A stretch of 45,005 nucleotides of DNA from assembly GCA_016873515.1 (NCBI GenBank), contig VGXB01000015.1:1-45005 (forward strand), read 5' to 3'. Shown here piece after piece: positions 19,977-28,464 of the stretch; positions within the stretch are counted from its first letter, which is position 1, and the number at the start of each line of letters is the position of its first letter. Origin of the DNA: Nitrospira sp. (GTDB lineage Bacteria; Nitrospirota; Nitrospiria; Nitrospirales; Nitrospiraceae). The notes beneath the pieces were generated by a model. That model was given only the letters and a program-made list of their open reading frames with translations, did no database searches and had not been told where the DNA came from. Position numbers and translations under genes: made by a program.

Positions 19977-21653
19977 CTACTGCCGGATGTTGGCCCAGGC
20001 TTTCTGGTATTCCTCAAAGGAATCGACTTCCATCCAGCCTTTGAAGATCGGCACGGCATCGACCCGGTGGCCCCGGTCGATGAGTTCCTGGATCATGTCG
20101 GTGAATGAGGCTTTGATGAAGCTGCCGGCTTCGTGGAAGCCGGCCGTTTTGTACTTTTCCTGTGCCGCACGGTAGGAATCTCGGAGGGCCTGTGTGCCCT
20201 TTTCGGAAAACATGGCCATACCAATAAATTCTGCATGGGCCTGTTCTCGCGGAATCTGCTGGCCAATTTTGACAATTCGATGCTCGCCCTCCGGGATGAC
20301 GAAGCGCGATACATGAGCCTTGCTGGGTGGATTTGCCAGTGCGACTAGGTCCGGGTTCAGATGGGTCGGCAGGTTCCGCTGCTCCTGATCGAGCCATGCG
20401 AGATCGACGACGAGCGCGATGTCGGCTGGGCTTTTCAGCAATTTTTCAAGGACAGCCTGGTCGAAAATGATGTCGCCGTACAGAATGATGGTCCGGCCCT
20501 TCAGTTCGTTCTCGGCGCAGAAGAGGGAGAACGCCTCGCCGGTGGTTTCGTATCGGTCGTTGTCATAATAGCGGATATTGGGCAGGGAGATGGCCTCTTT
20601 CTTGTAACCCCGCACCAGGGCAATCTCTTTAATGTTGCATTCGTTGAGCGCAGTCACCTGGCGGTCCAGAATGGTTTTCCCTTTGATGTCGAGCAGGCAT
20701 TTCGGCTTGTCTTCGATCAGCGGCAGCAACTGCTTTTCAAATCCGGCAGCGGCAATGACGGCGGTGATCTTTTCTCCGCCGACCGGGAGAAAGTCCCGTT
20801 CATCCTGTTCCATTTGAGGGACGCCGACGATGTCGTAGACCTCCGGGAGCGAAACGATGATGCTGTTGGCGGCACCGGGCCGTGTATCGTTCTTAATGAG
20901 TGCGAGTGTGTCTTGCATGGAACGGATCGCCGCACGCACCGGCTGATTGGCGTAAATGATGATCTTGGCTCCTGCTTCTTCCAGCTCCGCGGCGGTGGTT
21001 TGGTCGAAAATCGTCGGAACTACAACCAGCGGCACACGGCCGGACCAGGCCCTGTAGACTGTTCGAAGCTCATCGAACTTCTTCGATTTCGAATGGATCA
21101 AGACCGCGTCGGCTCCCGCCTCGGCGTAGGCTGAGGCCCGCTTTAGGGCTTCCTCTTGGCCCCAGCCTGCGATGAGCGCTTCCGTCCTGGCGATGATCAC
21201 GAACTCCGGAAAAAGCTGCGCGGCCTTGGCTGCTTTGATCTTGCTGCAATGTTCTTCAATCGGGATCAATTCACGGCGGACGCCCGCATAGAAGCTGCAC
21301 CGTTTGGGGTAGACGTTGTCTTCGATGCAAATACCGGCCACACCGGCCCGCTCCCGGTCGTTGACGGTGCGCATGACATTCAGCGCGTTGCCGTAGCCGG
21401 TATCGCAATCGGCGATGACGGGGATGCTTACGGCCTCGACGATATTGCGCTCGATGGCAAGTTGTTCGCTGGAGTCGATGAAACTGGCGTCGGGGATGCA
21501 TTTCATCGAGGCTGAAATGGCAAAGCCGCTGGCCCAGATGCCGTCGAACCCTGCGCGTTCGATCAGGCGCGCGCTCAAGGCGTCATGGGCACCGACAATT
21601 TTTATGGCACCCGGCTTCTTCAGAGCGGTCCGGAGCTTCACGGCATTGGTCAT
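19977..21653 (-). CDS. PEP mutase-nucleotidyltransferase fusion (phosphonate synthesis)
   Basis: A 558-residue two-domain protein. Residues 1-285 are a TIM-barrel PEP mutase/isocitrate lyase domain: metal-binding ADCDTGYG (Asp82, Asp84), Glu111-Asp112, Arg156 (IARTEALIAGWG) and His187 are kept, and GW-G-x-E-EALKRA and GADA-hLIHSK match phosphonate enzymes. The gating loop, however, is EDNVYPKRCS instead of EDK-x5-NS, so Asn122 of mussel mutase is Cys119, as in isocitrate lyases. Residues 295-558 form a nucleotidyltransferase domain with a weak AAAG start but a good PKCLLDIKGKTILDRQ block. The ATG at 21653 is chosen for GAGG five bases upstream. Known members convert PEP to phosphonopyruvate. 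The neighbouring decarboxylase and transaminase support that role. Confidence 0.85.
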   Translation of the reverse strand: MTNAVKLRTALKKPGAIKIVGAHDALSARLIERAGFDGIWASGFAISASMKCIPDASFIDSSEQLAIERNIVEAVSIPVIADCDTGYGNALNVMRTVNDRERAGVAGICIEDNVYPKRCSFYAGVRRELIPIEEHCSKIKAAKAAQLFPEFVIIARTEALIAGWGQEEALKRASAYAEAGADAVLIHSKSKKFDELRTVYRAWSGRVPLVVVPTIFDQTTAAELEEAGAKIIIYANQPVRAAIRSMQDTLALIKNDTRPGAANSIIVSLPEVYDIVGVPQMEQDERDFLPVGGEKITAVIAAAGFEKQLLPLIEDKPKCLLDIKGKTILDRQVTALNECNIKEIALVRGYKKEAISLPNIRYYDNDRYETTGEAFSLFCAENELKGRTIILYGDIIFDQAVLEKLLKSPADIALVVDLAWLDQEQRNLPTHLNPDLVALANPPSKAHVSRFVIPEGEHRIVKIGQQIPREQAHAEFIGMAMFSEKGTQALRDSYRAAQEKYKTAGFHEAGSFIKASFTDMIQELIDRGHRVDAVPIFKGWMEVDSFEEYQKAWANIRQ

Positions 21654-21726: not shown

Positions 21727-22290
21727 TCAGAATACCGTTGAGGGAACGTCTTCGCTCCAGCGCTCGCGCAGGGTTGCGCTCTCAATGAAGATAATGCCGC
21801 GGACCAGACTTGATTCGAAGCGCAGGGTCACCTCCGTCTGGAACCCGTGCCAGGCGTAGACTTTGATCGGGCCGACCGCGATTTGTCCTGGCGTTCGGTC
21901 GAGTGGGCCGTAGTGGGATTGCAGATACGCCAGGATCGCGTCATGAGTATCTCTTCCGCTGTAACGGATAGTCACCCGACCGAACTTGTGCCGAAAGGTG
22001 GTGAAGCGCGTGGAATCGACTGGCGTCGTGCCAAGCATCGGTGCGTGGTCCTTGCGCTCATAGGTCTGAAACCGTCCGGTATCTTCGACACTGACGAAGC
22101 GGGTATTGTCCGAAAGCGTTGCCCCCCAGAGGATACCATCGAATCCATTGGGATCGTTGAGAATGGGAACGGCTGGTGCAGGGGATCCCTGCAGCAACAG
22201 GAGGCCTGCGAATCCCGCCACAACAAGCTTCGCCCATCCTCGAAACAGGCTGAGGGACGAATCAATCCGCCGAATCAGTGATGTCATCAT
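21727..22290 (-). CDS. Exported protein, tandem paralogue 2, unknown function
   Basis: A predicted protein of about 187 residues with an N-terminal signal sequence (hydrophobic core LVVAGFAGLLLLQG, then a processing region near APAVP). It is a paralogue of the gene just upstream: both have a mature start of the type NDPxGFxxIxWG, then a central RVTIxYxG strand and an R-x-PGQ motif, and both end with a GxIFIxSxTL strand. Starts at ATG 22290 or 22287 overlap the end of the upstream gene by about 26-29 bp, which suggests translational coupling. It precedes the PEP mutase gene on the same strand with a 73-bp gap. The pair is therefore a candidate periplasmic part of the phosphonate system. The family is not recognised. 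Confidence 0.7.
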   Translation of the reverse strand: MMTSLIRRIDSSLSLFRGWAKLVVAGFAGLLLLQGSPAPAVPILNDPNGFDGILWGATLSDNTRFVSVEDTGRFQTYERKDHAPMLGTTPVDSTRFTTFRHKFGRVTIRYSGRDTHDAILAYLQSHYGPLDRTPGQIAVGPIKVYAWHGFQTEVTLRFESSLVRGIIFIESATLRERWSEDVPSTVF

Positions 22291-22810
22291 TGAATCGCGG
22301 CGCCAGTGTTCGGCTGTCGATGAAGATATACCCACGCTGCGTGCCAGCTTGATAGGTCAGATTGATTTCCGTGTCCGATCCGCGCCAGTTGTATTGCTGG
22401 TTGAGTCCCCGCGTCATTTGTCCGGGTACACGCTGCAACGATCCAAACTGCGCCTCGAGGAAGGTAAGCACCTCCTTGTGAACGTGCTCACCGTGGTAGT
22501 GGATCGTCACTCGCGCAAATTGATCGTTGATGGCGACGTAGAGAATACTCGCCATCTCGACGCCAGCGAAGGTCATCGGGTCAGTCTTCCGCCGGTATTC
22601 CGCAACATGGGCCGCTGACCGCGTGGTTTCCAAATCCTGGCGCGCCGTGAGTGGTGTGCCCCAGGCGATGTTCTGAAATCCCTTGGGATCGTTCACCATC
22701 GAGACGGCCCAGAGGGATGTCGTCGGATCCACGGTTCCGAGCATGAACAAACAGAGCCCGACGAATGTCGGTGGCGGGATGAAGTGTCTCATAATGTGTG
22801 CGAGCGACAT
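22262..22810 (-). CDS. Exported protein, tandem paralogue 1, unknown function
   Basis: A predicted protein of about 182 residues. The N-terminus is a signal-like segment (FVGLCLFMLGTVDPTTSLWA), so export is likely. The mature part starts with NDPKGFQNIAWGTPL and has RVTIHYHG, VPGQMTRGL and GYIFIDSRTL, all shared in order with the downstream paralogue (roughly a third identity by eye). Start ATG 22810 or 22792; neither has a good ribosome binding site. It is first in a minus-strand unit leading to the PEP mutase fusion and diverges from the decarboxylase operon. The duplication and the position suggest an envelope role linked to phosphonate products, but no enzymatic motif is seen. Confidence 0.68.
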   Translation of the reverse strand: MSLAHIMRHFIPPPTFVGLCLFMLGTVDPTTSLWAVSMVNDPKGFQNIAWGTPLTARQDLETTRSAAHVAEYRRKTDPMTFAGVEMASILYVAINDQFARVTIHYHGEHVHKEVLTFLEAQFGSLQRVPGQMTRGLNQQYNWRGSDTEINLTYQAGTQRGYIFIDSRTLAPRFNDDITDSAD

Positions 22811-22872
22811 GGCACGGTGATGTGCGCAAACGCTACCATGTGAATGCGGTGAACGCAACACGCCGTGCTTTC

Positions 22873-22902
22873 TTGCTGAAGTACAAGGCCCTAGCATATA
22901 AT
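22873..22902 (+). promoter_or_regulatory. Promoter of the phosphonopyruvate decarboxylase operon
   Basis: TTGCTG (22873-22878), an 18-bp spacer and a perfect TATAAT (22897-22902). The predicted transcription start is about 22909, giving a leader of roughly 65 nt before the ATG at 22974. Confidence 0.6.
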
Positions 22903-22973: not shown

Positions 22974-23471
22974 ATGATGGACAGCGATGTGTTCGTGCAG
23001 TCGCTCCAAGATCTGGGCGTGGATTTTTTTACCGGCGTGCCTGATTCGATCCTCGGCGGCATTATCGCCGAGCTGATGAACCGCCGGCTGTATACGCCTG
23101 CGGTTCGCGAGGATGAAGCAGTGGGCATGGCGGCCGGCGCCTACATGGCTGGGAAAATGCCAGTGGTGTTGATGCAGAATTCAGGATTGGGGACGTCGCT
23201 CAATACACTGATTTCGCTGAACATGATTTATCGGCAGCCCTGCATCCTCATCGTGTCGTGGCGGGGGCAGGGCGGGAAGGATGCGCCGGAGCATCTCGTG
23301 ATGGGCGAAGTCATGCCGCAATTTCTTGATACGATGAAAATTCCGCATCGAACCCTGACGGAGAAAACAGCGACCGACGATTTCAGATGGATAGCGGAGA
23401 TATACAAGAAACAACAGATTCCGGTCGCGCTCCTTATCACCAAGGGCGTGGTGAAGGGGCTGCACCCATGA
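22974..23471 (+). CDS. Phosphonopyruvate decarboxylase, alpha (N-terminal) subunit
   Basis: A 165-residue protein equivalent to the N-terminal pyrimidine-binding domain of thiamine diphosphate decarboxylases. DFFTGVPDSILGGII, the cofactor-activating glutamate region AVREDEAVGMAAGAYMAGK (41-59) and the GQGGKDAPEH loop match Ppd enzymes, which convert phosphonopyruvate to phosphonoacetaldehyde and CO2 and pull the unfavourable mutase reaction forward. Typical Ppd is one chain of about 380 residues. Here it is split in two, as in sulfopyruvate decarboxylase ComD/ComE. Stop and next start overlap as ATGA. AAGGA lies upstream of the ATG. The neighbouring PEP mutase and transaminase favour phosphonopyruvate over sulfopyruvate as substrate. 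Confidence 0.85.
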   Translation: MMDSDVFVQSLQDLGVDFFTGVPDSILGGIIAELMNRRLYTPAVREDEAVGMAAGAYMAGKMPVVLMQNSGLGTSLNTLISLNMIYRQPCILIVSWRGQGGKDAPEHLVMGEVMPQFLDTMKIPHRTLTEKTATDDFRWIAEIYKKQQIPVALLITKGVVKGLHP

Positions 23472-24055
23472 CGATGAGGCCAGAACAAGGTACGTTAATC
23501 AGCCGGGCCCAAGCGATGGCGGCGCTGCTGGAGTTATTGACCGACCAGCCGGTCATCGTATGCAACGGGTTTCCCTCGCGCGAGGCCCAGAAGATCGCCG
23601 ACCGGCCCACGCACTTTTATATGATCGGCTCGATGGGCAACGCGGCGGCCATTGCGCTGGGCGTGGCGCTGGCCAAGCCGGACAAACAGGTCGTCACATT
23701 CGATGGCGACGGCAATGTCTTGATGGGCATGGGCACGCTGGCGACGGTCGGTGCCCTGAAGCCCAAGAATTTCATCCATGTTGTATTCGATAACGAAGTA
23801 TATGGGACGACCGGGAACCAGCCGACAATTTCCAACGTCGTGTCCCTGGAAAAAGTGGCGAAGGCCGCCGGCTACGTGAACACGGTCCGTGTGCTCGATC
23901 GCGATGATCTCGTGTACGAGTTCAAAGACCTGCTGAAAAAAGATGGGCCCAGTATGCTACTGATCAAGGTCAATGAGTTCCAGGAAGAGGCGGACCGGAT
24001 TTTGCTCGATCCGCCGGATCTGACGAAACGGTTCATGAACGCGATTAAGGGATGA
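23468..24055 (+). CDS. Phosphonopyruvate decarboxylase, beta (C-terminal) subunit
   Basis: A 195-residue protein equivalent to the C-terminal diphosphate-binding domain of thiamine diphosphate decarboxylases. The cofactor motif is visible: FDGDGNVLMGMGTLATVG followed by HVVFDNEVYGTTG, the GDG-x(~25)-N pattern that binds Mg2+ and the diphosphate. FYMIGSMGNAAAIALGVALAKP precedes it as in Ppd. The ATG at 23468 overlaps the alpha stop codon (ATGA), so the two subunits should be made in equal amounts and form a mixed complex. Domain length and order, when joined to alpha, reproduce a complete Ppd chain. An imperfect long hairpin follows the stop codon. Confidence 0.87.
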   Translation: MTMRPEQGTLISRAQAMAALLELLTDQPVIVCNGFPSREAQKIADRPTHFYMIGSMGNAAAIALGVALAKPDKQVVTFDGDGNVLMGMGTLATVGALKPKNFIHVVFDNEVYGTTGNQPTISNVVSLEKVAKAAGYVNTVRVLDRDDLVYEFKDLLKKDGPSMLLIKVNEFQEEADRILLDPPDLTKRFMNAIKG

Positions 24056-24170: not shown

Positions 24171-25253
24171 GTGATTCTCCTTAACCCTGGGCCGGTCAAT
24201 GTCACTGAGCGTGTGCGGCAGGCACTGCTCCGTCCCGACATTTGCCATCGTGAGTCGGAATTTACGGAGCTACTGTATCGTATCCAATCGAAGCTGCTGA
24301 AGGCGTTTGTGCCAGGGGCTGAATCAGACTATGTGGCCGTGGTTATCACCGGCTCCGGAACCTCCGCCGTCGAAGCCGCCCTGTTGTCGTCCTTGCCCCA
24401 TGGCCGGCGCATGCTTATCCTCAATAACGGTGTGTATGGTGAGCGGATGTCCCAGATCATCGGCTTGCATCGTCTTGGAGTGAGTGAGCTGAAGTACGAC
24501 TGGATATCGCGGCCCGATCCGGACAAGCTCCTGCTAGCGCTCCGGCAGCATCAGGAAGTGCATGTAGTCGGCATGGTCCATCATGAAACGACGACCGGGT
24601 TGCTCAATCCCGTCCATGAGATCGCTGAGATCGTCGACAATCAGAATCGTGTCTTTGTGCTCGATTCGGTCAGCGCTCTGGCGGGTGAAATGCTCAATAT
24701 CGCGAAGTCGCACATCTATATGGTGACGGGTACGGCGGGAAAGTGCATCCAGGGATTTCCCGGTGTCTCCTTCGTCCTGGTACGCAAGGGGTTTGTCGAA
24801 AAGATGCGGGGGTACCCCAAGCGATCCTGGTATCTCCATCTCATGCACTACATCGACAGCGAAGGCCGAGGTACGATTCCGTTCACCCCGGCGGTTCAGG
24901 TGTACTACGCGTTCGACGAAGCGCTGAGCGAACTGCTCGAAGAAGGTGTGGCCAATCGTGTGCAGCGGTACAAGAAGATGGCGTCGCTCATCCGAGACCG
25001 TATGGCTCAGCTAGGTGTGAGAGCACTCCTGCCGCCGGATCGTCAGTCGAATACCATCACAGCCTATTATCTGCCGGAGGGCGTGTCGTACCAGACGTTG
25101 CACGACCGGCTGAAAGCCTCAGGCTACGTGATCTATTCTGGCCAGGGCAATCTGGAAAACAAGATTTTCCGCGTCGCTAACATGGGGGCGTTGACCGAAG
25201 CGCAGGTTCACGGATTTCTCGATGCCTTCGAGCAGGCGAGTAAATCCGCATGA
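24171..25253 (+). CDS. 2-aminoethylphosphonate transaminase-like enzyme (PhnW family)
   Basis: A 360-residue class V PLP-dependent aminotransferase. The start LLNPGPVNVT, the phosphate-binding GSGTSAVEAA (61-70), Asp165 in FVLDSVSAL, and the Schiff-base lysine Lys191 in GTAGKCIQGFPGVSF match PhnW (SANKCIQG) well. In this setting it would run towards synthesis, aminating phosphonoacetaldehyde to 2-aminoethylphosphonate. GTG 24171 has a strong GGAGG site. Downstream, its stop overlaps the ATG of the nucleotidyltransferase gene by four bases. Phosphonate degradation is an alternative for the family, but no phosphonatase or C-P lyase gene is present and a mutase and decarboxylase are, so synthesis is favoured. 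Confidence 0.85.
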   Translation: MILLNPGPVNVTERVRQALLRPDICHRESEFTELLYRIQSKLLKAFVPGAESDYVAVVITGSGTSAVEAALLSSLPHGRRMLILNNGVYGERMSQIIGLHRLGVSELKYDWISRPDPDKLLLALRQHQEVHVVGMVHHETTTGLLNPVHEIAEIVDNQNRVFVLDSVSALAGEMLNIAKSHIYMVTGTAGKCIQGFPGVSFVLVRKGFVEKMRGYPKRSWYLHLMHYIDSEGRGTIPFTPAVQVYYAFDEALSELLEEGVANRVQRYKKMASLIRDRMAQLGVRALLPPDRQSNTITAYYLPEGVSYQTLHDRLKASGYVIYSGQGNLENKIFRVANMGALTEAQVHGFLDAFEQASKSA

Positions 25254-25969
25254 AAGCCGTGATTCTTGCAGCGGGCGTTGGCAGGCGGCTCTGGGAGGTT
25301 ACCCAACATCGGCCCAAGTGCTTGATCGAGATCGGCGGCCGGTCGTTGCTGCATCGCTACCTGGTGGGGTTGGCCGGGTTGGGCATCACGCGTGCGACCA
25401 TCGTGGTCGGCTACCGGCAGGAAATGATCCGCGACGCAGTTGCAGGTGAGGACTGCGGCGTCAAAGTAGACTTTCTGGTCAACGATCAGTTCCACCGTGG
25501 CAGCATCTCTTCGCTCTGGATCGCCCGTACGGCCCTCGACGACGATGCGATTGTGATGGATGCCGATGTGCTGTTTCACCACCATGTTCTCCAGCGGCTG
25601 GTGGAGTCGCGACATGAGAATGCGCTGCTGATGGACGAAACCGTCACGCAGACTGGTGAGGAATGCATGGTCGTGGTGGCGGGAGGACGGGTCATCGCCC
25701 TCTCGAAGAAGATGCCGGAGCAGTACGATTACGCCGGTGAGGGCGTGGGATTCTTACGGGTGCGGCACGCCGATACGCCTCATCTGGTGGCGTCGCTTCA
25801 GTCCCATGTCGATCAGGGTTCGTGGAATATGGAGTACGAGGACGCGCTGCTAGAATTTTTCCACACTGTCAAGGTTGGCCATGAAAAGATCGGCGGCCTG
25901 CCCTGGACGGAGATCGATTTCGTCGAGGATGTAAAGAAGGCGGAATTGGACGTTTTACCGAAATTATGA
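25250..25969 (+). CDS. Nucleotidyltransferase, LicC/PntC-like cytidylyltransferase
   Basis: A 239-residue GT-A fold nucleotidyltransferase. The N-terminus MKAVILAAGVGRRLWEVTQ and RPKCLIEIGGRSLLHRYL give the complete LAAGxGxRL signature and the substrate-contacting lysine, and MDADVLFHH gives a metal-binding aspartate. The family includes phosphocholine cytidylyltransferase LicC and the 2-aminoethylphosphonate cytidylyltransferase PntC. Between the transaminase (ATGA overlap) and the CDP-alcohol transferase, the natural reading is CTP + aminoethylphosphonate to CMP-aminoethylphosphonate. The substrate is inferred from context only, and a sugar- or inositol-phosphate nucleotidyltransferase cannot be excluded. 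Confidence 0.78.
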   Translation: MKAVILAAGVGRRLWEVTQHRPKCLIEIGGRSLLHRYLVGLAGLGITRATIVVGYRQEMIRDAVAGEDCGVKVDFLVNDQFHRGSISSLWIARTALDDDAIVMDADVLFHHHVLQRLVESRHENALLMDETVTQTGEECMVVVAGGRVIALSKKMPEQYDYAGEGVGFLRVRHADTPHLVASLQSHVDQGSWNMEYEDALLEFFHTVKVGHEKIGGLPWTEIDFVEDVKKAELDVLPKL

Positions 25970-26020: not shown

Positions 26021-27457
26021 ATGAATGAGAGCGTCTTACAGAAGCGAGTCGAGATCCCCGGATTGACCACGGCTGTCCTGCTGCCTTCGGTCGGGATGTT
26101 CGCCGAGTCAAGCGAGCACCGAGTGAGTGCGATCGGGCCCTTGACCAGTGTCGTCGGGATCGGGCTGTTTCAACGAACCGTCCTCACATTACAACGGGCG
26201 GGCATTCGCCAATTGATCGTGCTGGCCGGTCCGGAAGAGGATCAGCTCAAGCAGGCGTTGGGACATGGGCCGCGCCTGACGATTTCGGTGCGTTGGATGC
26301 CCCTCCGGGAGTTTCCGCTAGACGATCCGAGGACGTGGGAATTTTTGGCGGCAGAAGTCCGCGGCTTCGCACTGGTGACGGGGGTGAGCGCGATCTTCTC
26401 GCGAAGCTTGGTCGAACGGTTGCGGCACGAAGTGCGGGACGGTGAAGCCATCATGGTTGCGCAGACGGCGCCGCGGCAATTTAACGATCTGTTGGCAGGG
26501 GGGCTTCGGTTGAAAGTCGAGTCGGATCGGTTCACGTCGTTCGTTCCATCGCACTTTGACGATTCGGCACTACGTGCAGCAGAATTGGTGGTCTTGCCGG
26601 CCAGTCTCATGAATGCGGCAGGCCAGGGTACGTCTGAGCAAGATCGGCCGCCGATCCGCCGTTGGCTGGAACAGGCAGCGGTAGATGGCCGCGTGCGGGT
26701 GATCGCGGCGGAGGACAAGCATGGGGCCTGGTATCAGGACGTCAGCACGCTAGCTGATGTGTCTGTGGCTGAAAAGAAGCTGTTCAATTCACTCAAGGGC
26801 GACTCCGAAGGCTTTGTCGATCGGTATTTCAATCGCAAACTCTCGCGCTGGTTCACACGCCTGTTCCTCGCTGTCGGGTTCTCGCCCAATTCCGTGACGA
26901 TCGTGGCCTCGTTGATCGGGTTTGTGTCGGCTGCAGGATTCGGCATGGGAACGTATGCAGCGGGTGTGGCGGCGGCGCTGTTGTTTCAATTGGCGGCGGT
27001 CATCGATTGTTGCGATGGCGAGGTGGCGCGTCTGACGTTCACTGAGTCGCCGTTTGGCGCGTGGTTCGACCTTGCCATGGACAACGTCGTGCACATGGCC
27101 ATCTTCGCTGGCATCGCCGCCGGACTCTACACGGCTCAGGTTGGAGAGCCGGGGGCCTGGAAGCCATTGGCCTGCGGAGCGGTGGCCGTGCTGGGGAATG
27201 GGTTGTCGTTTCTGTTGGTCGAGCGAGCGCGGAAAATTAAGTTGGCCAGTGGATGGCGCACGCCGGAACATGCGGCTTGGGGGGATTTCATGTTGAAGAA
27301 TGTCGCCAGCCGTGATTTCTCGGTGTCTCTGGTGCTCTTTGCGCTGTTAGCCGTACTCGACTGGTTCCTCATGTTTGCGGCCGCCGGCTCGCTGATCTTC
27401 GCCTGTGTCATGCTGTGGGTGATTCGCCCCTCTGCCGTAGCTGTGACCAAATCATGA
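26021..27457 (+). CDS. CDP-alcohol phosphotransferase with degenerate nucleotidyltransferase domain
   Basis: A 478-residue fusion. Residues 260-478 carry the membrane-embedded CDP-alcohol phosphatidyltransferase domain with a complete catalytic motif D-x2-DG-x2-AR-x8-G-x3-D-x3-D (Asp329, Asp332, Gly333, Ala336, Arg337, Gly346, Asp350, Asp354) and about five to six helices. Residues 15-250 look like a nucleotidyltransferase (RAGIRQLIVLAG, LVTGVSAIFSRSLVERL), but the GGxGxR loop is lost (LPSVGMFAESSEHRV), so it is probably not catalytic. This order recalls the archaeal IPCT-DIPP synthase fusion. The transferase would move an alcohol phosphate or phosphonate from a CMP/CDP donor to a membrane lipid. 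51 bp separate it from the cytidylyltransferase gene. Confidence 0.82.
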   Translation: MNESVLQKRVEIPGLTTAVLLPSVGMFAESSEHRVSAIGPLTSVVGIGLFQRTVLTLQRAGIRQLIVLAGPEEDQLKQALGHGPRLTISVRWMPLREFPLDDPRTWEFLAAEVRGFALVTGVSAIFSRSLVERLRHEVRDGEAIMVAQTAPRQFNDLLAGGLRLKVESDRFTSFVPSHFDDSALRAAELVVLPASLMNAAGQGTSEQDRPPIRRWLEQAAVDGRVRVIAAEDKHGAWYQDVSTLADVSVAEKKLFNSLKGDSEGFVDRYFNRKLSRWFTRLFLAVGFSPNSVTIVASLIGFVSAAGFGMGTYAAGVAAALLFQLAAVIDCCDGEVARLTFTESPFGAWFDLAMDNVVHMAIFAGIAAGLYTAQVGEPGAWKPLACGAVAVLGNGLSFLLVERARKIKLASGWRTPEHAAWGDFMLKNVASRDFSVSLVLFALLAVLDWFLMFAAAGSLIFACVMLWVIRPSAVAVTKS

Positions 27458-27471
27458 GTCGCTGAACCCGC

Positions 27472-28464
27472 GTGCTTCGCTATTTCCTACTCGCGCTAGG
27501 TCTGACCGTCCTCGGTCTCCTTGTTTGGCATATCGGCCCCGACAAGATCTATGAGGCGGCGTTTCGGCTCGGTCCGCTGGCGTTGCTGGCCGTCTTGATT
27601 CCGTCCTTCTTGATGTATGCCATCGAGGCCTATGGCTGGAAGGTCGTTCTGGGCTCGTCTGCCCAAGCCATTCCCTTTTGGCGGCTGATGGCCATTCGCA
27701 CCGCCGGCGAAGTTGTGAACATGACGACGCCGACGGCCTACTTGGGTGGCGAACCGCTCAAAGCGTATCTCCTCAAGAAATACAACGTCCCGATTGCGGA
27801 GGGAGCTGCGTCCGTCGTCATTGCGAAGACCACCATGACTCTTGCCGAGGTATTCTATATTCTCGTTGGGATCGCTCTAGGGTTTGTGCTTCTGGGGATG
27901 GGAACCTCGGCAGGACAAACGGTGACGGCCGCGTTATTGAGTGTAGGGGTACTGGTGTGCTCAATCGCGGGATTTGTATTTATCCAGCGGCGTGGACTAT
28001 TCATCTCAATCCTGAGTCTGGTGAGGAAACTGAGGCTGCGAATTGGGTTTTTGGAATCGAAAAAAGCGCATCTGCTTTCGATCGACCGGACAATTCAGGA
28101 TTATTACACCCACCACCAGCAGGCTTTTTATGCCTCGATCGGCTTGTATTTTTTGGGCTGGATGGCCGAATCCATCGAGGTCTTCATCATTCTGCATTTT
28201 CTTGGTGAACCGACCAGCATCTTGTCGGCTTTCTCCATCGGCGCCCTCGCCGTATTTATCAAGGGAGGAAGCTTCTTCATTCCCGGGAGTTTGGGGGCCC
28301 AAGACGGAGGCAATGTCTTACTCCTCCAGGCCTTCGGCTACAGCGATGTCACAGGGCTGACGTTCGCTCTGTTAAGGCGCTTTCGGGAATTGGTCTGGAT
28401 CGGAATCGGTTTGCTCTGTTTGGCGATGGTGGGAAAAGGCGCAACACATCAGGAGGTAGAATAA
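27472..28464 (+). CDS. Flippase-like lysylphosphatidylglycerol synthase-type membrane protein
   Basis: A 330-residue polytopic membrane protein with about eight hydrophobic segments. The segments RTAGEVVNMTTPTAYLGGEPLKAYLLKKYN and GGSFFIPGSLGAQDGGNVLLLQAFGY match the UPF0104/LPG_synthase_TM family (TIGR00374), which includes the MprF flippase domain and many uncharacterised lipid or polyprenol translocase candidates. GTG 27472 lies 15 bp after the CDP-alcohol gene stop, with only a weak ribosome binding site. Such proteins often sit beside CDP-alcohol transferases or glycosyltransferases. Here it is a candidate for moving the phosphonolipid across the inner membrane, inferred from position. 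Confidence 0.75.
   Translation: MLRYFLLALGLTVLGLLVWHIGPDKIYEAAFRLGPLALLAVLIPSFLMYAIEAYGWKVVLGSSAQAIPFWRLMAIRTAGEVVNMTTPTAYLGGEPLKAYLLKKYNVPIAEGAASVVIAKTTMTLAEVFYILVGIALGFVLLGMGTSAGQTVTAALLSVGVLVCSIAGFVFIQRRGLFISILSLVRKLRLRIGFLESKKAHLLSIDRTIQDYYTHHQQAFYASIGLYFLGWMAESIEVFIILHFLGEPTSILSAFSIGALAVFIKGGSFFIPGSLGAQDGGNVLLLQAFGYSDVTGLTFALLRRFRELVWIGIGLLCLAMVGKGATHQEVE

Follow-up and report, generated by a model that had tools for sequence, protein, structure and literature searches.

A probable PEP mutase with a lyase-like catalytic loop in a phosphonate locus of Nitrospira

Introduction

In the lyases of the PEP-mutase/isocitrate-lyase superfamily, the cysteine of the catalytic loop serves as the acid/base, and phosphonopyruvate hydrolase, another relative of PEP mutase, has a degradative role. 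In the PEP mutase of the mussel, Arg159 and His190 stabilise a metaphosphate-like intermediate, and further contacts have been proposed for Asn122 and Ser123; the difference between mutase and hydrolase is usually credited to Asn122Thr, although the same review doubts this (PMC7916636). Published phosphonate surveys accept EDK-x5-NS proteins only (PMC8931226, PMC6697681, PMC12723261). PEP mutases are typically fused to PF12804: of 905 fused PF13714 proteins, 883 have the PepM motif, and just 22 were discarded by the motif filter of Rice et al. (PMC6697681).

Here, we consider a gene in a 45,005-nucleotide stretch of a Nitrospira genome (the window; contig VGXB01000015.1 of assembly GCA_016873515.1). 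With PEP mutase (PepM/Ppm, TIGR02320; 5unc from Streptomyces, 1pym and 1m1b from the mussel), its product shares the fold, the metal site, Arg156, His187, Lys117, Ser120, a fused PF12804 nucleotidyltransferase and adjoining genes for phosphonopyruvate decarboxylase (Ppd) and an aminotransferase, but it has Asn for the Lys after ED, Arg-Cys-Ser for x-Asn-Ser and Arg127 for Gln130. Phosphonopyruvate hydrolase (Variovorax, 2dua) has the same fold and is likewise without Asn at mussel position 122, where it has Thr; however, it keeps EDK and sits inside the canonical mutase clade, whereas the window gene lies among biosynthetic genes. The lyases, here 2-methylisocitrate lyase, petal death protein and the CPEP-mutase-like 4iqd, share the Arg/Lys-Cys of the loop and the Thr after Arg156. 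Their loop (EDQ..K[KR]CGH) differs in having Gln after ED and Gly-His after Cys, they have Asp at mussel position 161, Glu at 190 and Met at 216, and they form a separate clade (100/100). Finally, the Pnt pathway with its PntC cytidylyltransferases (PMC6697681) combines in one locus, as the window does, a mutase-nucleotidyltransferase fusion, Ppd, an aminotransferase and a further nucleotidyltransferase. The window differs in that its first enzyme has a Cys loop, CDP-alcohol transferase and flippase-like genes follow, and the fused domain is no more than a remote relative of LicC (1jyk, the nearest structure, E 1.5e-9) and of PntC (6pd1, E 0.003).

Results

The gene (positions 19977..21653, minus strand) is an open reading frame with an ATG start and encodes 558 amino acids. 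Residues 1-290 (20784..21653, minus strand) belong to the superfamily (PF13714, 202 bits), and residues from about 296 to 558 (19980..20768, minus strand) form a MobA/LicC-type nucleotidyltransferase, a feature absent from a first-pass annotation of this DNA. The catalytic (gating) loop, residues 111-120 (21294..21323, minus strand), is EDNVYPKRCS. In our alignment, its Asn113 and Cys119 (codon 21297..21299, minus strand) fall opposite mussel Lys116 and Asn122, and the metal-site acids Asp55, Asp82, Asp84 and Glu111 are retained, as are Arg156 and His187, all of which agrees with the first-pass annotation. All 26 sampled members of what we call the KRCS family, drawn from several phyla, share Asn113, Cys119 and Ser120. 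The loop is neither a sequence error nor a one-off. The fused domain has its own oddity, reading AAGFEKQL in place of the GxGxR signature of the LicC/RmlA fold; that signature is likewise absent from the nucleotidyltransferase domains of canonical fused mutases, and the acidic motif YGDI(I/L)F is kept in both.

The top profile for the window protein is that of PEP mutase (TIGR02320), at 269.8 bits against a curated cut-off of 319.55. The hydrolase profile TIGR02321 comes second (253.5 bits, cut-off 374.4), and prpB reaches 195 bits against a cut-off of 354.4. An EDK..NS protein at locus L125 also scores below the TIGR02320 cut-off (306.3 bits). Among sequences of known structure, the best match is PEP mutase 5unc (268 bits), followed by hydrolase 2dua at 232, mussel mutase 1m1b at 209 and the lyases, none of them above 131. 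The AlphaFold2 model (mean pLDDT 91.4) matches 5unc best (Z 42.3, rmsd 1.0 over 289 residues), then 1pym (Z 40.5), the hydrolase (about 39) and the lyases (about 35 or less); because block means in the loop region fall to about 73, the model is unfit for judging Cys119 geometry. The protein lacks EDK-x5-NS, and it has neither the EDK..DTS loop of phosphonopyruvate hydrolases nor a hydrolase score above cut-off. As for the lyases, its loop is KRCSF and not K[KR]CGH, its prpB score is below cut-off, and it falls outside the lyase clade.

We compared 26 KRCS proteins, residue by residue, with 49 canonical mutases and 11 lyases. Positions that separate mutases from lyases are mutase-type in the KRCS proteins: Trp40 (mussel 44), Ser120 (123), Glu158 (161), His187 (190), Pro213 (216) and Asn236 (239). 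The full set of mutase-specific residues (in mussel numbers Trp44, Asp58, Asp85, Asp87, Glu114, Lys120, Ser123, Arg159, Glu161 and His190) is present in all sampled members. The KRCS proteins depart from the canonical residue, always or almost always, at Asn113 (Lys116 in canonical mutases, Gln in lyases), Cys119 (Asn122 in canonical mutases, Cys in lyases), Arg118, Arg127 (canonical Gln130) and Thr157. The protein thus has the pocket of a mutase and the loop tip of a lyase. The description given in the first-pass annotation, a hybrid with the lyase KRC in a mutase scaffold, stands, with one refinement: the loop resembles that of the lyases at Arg118 and Cys119 only, Pro116-Lys117 and Ser120 agree with the mutases, and Asn113 matches neither group.

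A tree of 89 domains, from which the loop columns had been removed, splits the lyases from all else (100/100) and places the KRCS proteins on the mutase side. A position inside the isocitrate/methylisocitrate lyases had been named beforehand as the result that would speak against a mutase, and the tree gives the opposite. Canonical mutases and the hydrolase form one clade (100/99) that excludes all proteins with EDN loops. These fall on the lyase side of the canonical branch, as either a stem grade or a sister clade (monophyly is not rejected, with AU p 0.48 for the EDN group and 0.27 for KRCS alone), with long branches (L126, L137, L148) that call for caution in reading the tree. Since the KRCS family is not nested in characterised mutases, its function is not bracketed by phylogeny. 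On this evidence, the family is perhaps an early-diverging PEP mutase lineage; the suggestion of a separate mutase subclass, made in the first-pass annotation, gains support from tree, residues and genome context alike.

The genes on the other side of the locus run divergently from the mutase gene, all on the plus strand. First are the two subunits of phosphonopyruvate decarboxylase, alpha (22974..23471; TPP N-terminal domain; TIGR03297, 134.9 bits over positions 1-156 of 360) and beta (23468..24055; TPP C-terminal domain; TIGR03297, 172.7 bits). They are followed by a 2-aminoethylphosphonate (AEP) aminotransferase (24171..25253; TIGR03301, 346.3 bits, cut-off 360.8), a stand-alone nucleotidyltransferase that is a candidate AEP cytidylyltransferase (25250..25969; PF00483/PF12804), a CDP-alcohol phosphatidyltransferase with an N-terminal nucleotidyltransferase-like part (26021..27457; PF01066, NF041135) and an HpnL/flippase-like membrane protein (27472..28464; TIGR00374, 67.6 bits, cut-off 43.2; TIGR03476, 159.7 bits). 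The beta subunit in fact scores slightly higher with sulfopyruvate decarboxylase beta (186.8 bits) than with Ppd, as it might if the locus made a sulfonate, from sulfopyruvate through sulfoacetaldehyde to taurine. We find this barely conceivable. The alpha subunit prefers Ppd (134.9 against 113.3 bits), the aminotransferase is of the AEP type, taurine synthesis is not known to involve a nucleotidyltransferase or a CDP-alcohol transferase, and the mutase gene is exchanged with a canonical PEP mutase in other Nitrospira (see below). With the locus read as phosphonate genes, the product of the CDP-alcohol phosphatidyltransferase may, judging from its family, be a phosphonolipid head group; the layout of this protein is like that of the bifunctional inositol-phosphate cytidylyltransferase/DIPP synthase. 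Between the mutase and decarboxylase genes lie two tandem small genes (21727-22290 and 22262-22900, both minus strand) whose products are mutually alike, share NDPxGF..I.WG and FARVTI-type stretches and have no Pfam match; the pair is conserved at this place across Nitrospira.

A scan of species genomes, taking the best 80 loci, found the EDN..[RK]CS loop in Nitrospira, in other Nitrospirota and in MAGs assigned to Nitrospinota, Binatia/Binatota, Rokubacteria, Acidobacteria, Planctomycetota, Phycisphaerales, Myxococcota, Pseudomonadota/Proteobacteria and Deltaproteobacteria; given that limit of 80, the family is possibly wider. The Cys-loop proteins nearly always carry the same nucleotidyltransferase fusion. 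Two unfused relatives, from a KSB1 bacterium (L137:8001-8828) and a DPANN archaeon (L148:895-1731, followed by Ppd genes), have an EDNxFPKRNS loop, which stands between the Cys loop and the canonical one.

Outside the order, Ppd subunit genes lie directly 3′ of the KRCS gene at six loci from six lineages (L117, L119 and L121-L124). As a control, the fetched stretches hold a Ppd subunit at 48 of 56 canonical mutase loci and at 0 of 16 lyase loci. Split Ppd genes occur somewhere in 12 of 14 distant genomes with a KRCS or KRNS gene, and in all 14 that gene is the only candidate PEP mutase: none of their proteins scores above the TIGR02320 cut-off, the top match in each is the KRCS/KRNS gene, and the next reaches 139 bits at most. 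The KRCS gene is also the sole candidate in the window genome, where the only other PF13714 match (contig C29) is a ketopantoate hydroxymethyltransferase. Extra PF13714 matches in sister genomes, among those read, are EDQ..KKCGH lyases.

The control bears on the notion that the window protein is a C-C lyase of the methylisocitrate or dimethylmalate type that has come to lie near phosphonate genes by chance. The Arg/Lys-Cys of the loop and the Thr after Arg156 are what such a lyase would have. However, the repeated Ppd operons have no counterpart at lyase loci, the 100/100 split places the family elsewhere, Ser120, Glu158, His187, Pro213 and Asn236 are mutase-type in all sampled members, and the prpB score is far from its cut-off. 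Together with the replacement described next, we consider that tree, residues and profiles practically rule out a lyase.

Nitrospira itself provides a natural experiment. Some genomes carry a different fused mutase (form B), about 36% identical to the KRCS form (form A), with the canonical loop EDKLFPKTNS and a TIGR02320 score of 381.5 bits. Among 79 Nitrospira genomes, 30 have A (one cut at a contig end; the single-contig genomes G041 and G080 are among the carriers), 45 have B (one partial) and none has both (Fisher test, 8e-18, with kinship ignored). Across the order, A is found in 62 of 236 genomes and a canonical mutase in about 144, a number inferred among the matches listed; again, no genome has both. 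Apparent co-occurrence in genomes with two matches was rejected, the second matches being of the lyase kind (at most 110 bits with the canonical query). The AEP aminotransferase is present in 76 of the 79 genomes and in 49 of 49 of good quality. Form B is encoded away from the phosphonate locus, but B genomes still keep the Ppd-aminotransferase-nucleotidyltransferase locus. Where the slot of A can be read, the order is HpnL, CDPOH, NTP, AEPT, PpdB, PpdA, two small genes, the slot, TetR, MFP and RND, some genomes being without a detectable TetR. No intact A was found in the readable slots of B genomes; decayed A, with frameshifts, stops or as fragments, is seen in six (G007, G019, G049, G050, G051 and G094). 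The A/B counts alone give no direction, but these remnants show that A was lost there. In G019, B lies among ispD-, ispF-, cysE- and truA-type genes with no phosphonate gene adjoining; hence, what it makes can be of use to no other genes than those of the distant locus. A further Ppd adjoins B in some genomes.

On a tree of the four shared pathway proteins, itself the result of a quick search, well-supported branches require six or more switches of the A/B state, one of them separating the window genome from its nearest relative, G058. In all six independent pairs A and B go in opposite directions, which for so few pairs amounts to a p of just 0.031. This is most simply explained if either form supplies phosphonopyruvate and makes the second dispensable. 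A few genomes stand outside the pattern. G047 (locus L190; 90% complete) has the whole Ppd-aminotransferase locus with neither mutase form detected, and in G020 and G077 the sequence stops close to the slot. An apparent second, 51%-identical copy in G157 (L241:8915-9763, contig C9) probably reflects a chimeric assembly, since about 100 N-terminal residues of the KRCS mutase are joined there to a different member of the superfamily, next to a string of N, and the rest of the mutase starts contig C115. The protein in G109 (49% identity) is of the canonical form (EDKLFPKVNS).

The exclusion concerns the entire fusion protein, so that, in principle, what A and B have in common could be the work of the nucleotidyltransferase domain. 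It is therefore conceivable that the mutase domain is dead or redundant and that selection acts on the fused domain, which the replacing canonical form also has, so that replacement alone cannot separate the two. We think it decidedly improbable. Within Nitrospira, dN/dS of the mutase domain is about 0.02-0.055 (in pairs that include the window gene, whose C-terminal half has one residue fewer, the value is valid for the mutase domain alone); these genomes have no other PEP mutase to feed Ppd; and relatives without the fused domain exist, of which L148 (EDN..KRNS) adjoins Ppd. Another possibility is that the mutase domain works but has drifted to some other reaction of phosphonopyruvate or PEP, be it hydrolysis or the formation of a different C-P compound, in which Cys119 serves as an acid or positions water. 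The credit usually given to Asn122Thr (PMC7916636) and the second rank of the hydrolase profile are in keeping with such drift. Nevertheless, a hydrolase beside Ppd and the aminotransferase would destroy the substrate of the pathway, the characterised hydrolase lies inside the canonical clade, apart from the KRCS family, and a canonical mutase repeatedly replaces the KRCS gene; we judge drift very unlikely. A different C-P or C-C product had been offered as an alternative in the first-pass annotation, but genome context and reciprocal replacement make the PEP mutase reaction far likelier.

Discussion

From sequence comparison, the window protein is very probably a functional PEP mutase whose catalytic loop is non-canonical, even though it departs from the mutases at two of the three residues taken as diagnostic. 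We propose that the KRCS protein would isomerise PEP to phosphonopyruvate, a reaction that the adjacent decarboxylase would pull on by forming phosphonoacetaldehyde, and that the aminotransferase would convert the latter to 2-aminoethylphosphonate. One or both nucleotidyltransferases and the CDP-alcohol transferase might then attach this to a lipid or surface molecule, presumably through CMP-AEP. For the steps beyond phosphonopyruvate we rely on gene families and on the model of the Pnt pathway (PMC6697681). Catalysis would proceed, as in known mutases, through Mg(II)-bound pyruvate enolate and a metaphosphate-like intermediate, held by Arg156, His187, Lys117 and Ser120. Cys119 would stand in for Asn122 as the loop contact of the phosphoryl group and not be an acid/base as in the lyases, and Arg118 and Arg127 may compensate for the missing Lys116. 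The family would provide a mutase in which nature has exchanged Asn122 for Cys, precisely where the mutase/hydrolase split is usually said to arise.

Branching outside the canonical clade, towards the lyases, the family may keep a loop ancestral to the asparagine loop. It is plausible from the sequences that the Cys loop is the older of the two, with the EDN..KRNS proteins between them. A bolder reading, which we hold tentatively and at somewhat less than even weight, is that KRCS is a living lyase-to-mutase transition, from EDQ..KRCGH through EDN..KRCS and EDN..KRNS to EDK..NS, and makes its C-P bonds with a Cys in the loop. If so, Asn122 is not required for the mutase outcome. The intermediate loops provide a set for a direct test of the change from lyase to mutase.

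A practical lesson concerns genome surveys. The KRCS gene is PEP-mutase-like by strong comparative evidence, yet it fails both the recognition motif and the score. As the first-pass annotation foresaw, surveys that require EDK-x5-NS would miss it. Nitrite-oxidising Nitrospira with the KRCS form, along with members of some ten further bacterial lineages, are thereby counted as non-producers of phosphonates, and the family may be among the 22 proteins discarded by Rice et al. Our literature search, with subscription literature mostly outside it, returned no paper linking Nitrospira to PEP mutase and no description of a Cys-loop mutase, of which a prior mention is possible. As for the source genome, its 1.98 Mb, at an estimated completeness of 99.84%, compares with 2.5-5 Mb for most congeners, and it is either an unusually small Nitrospira genome or a shortened assembly.
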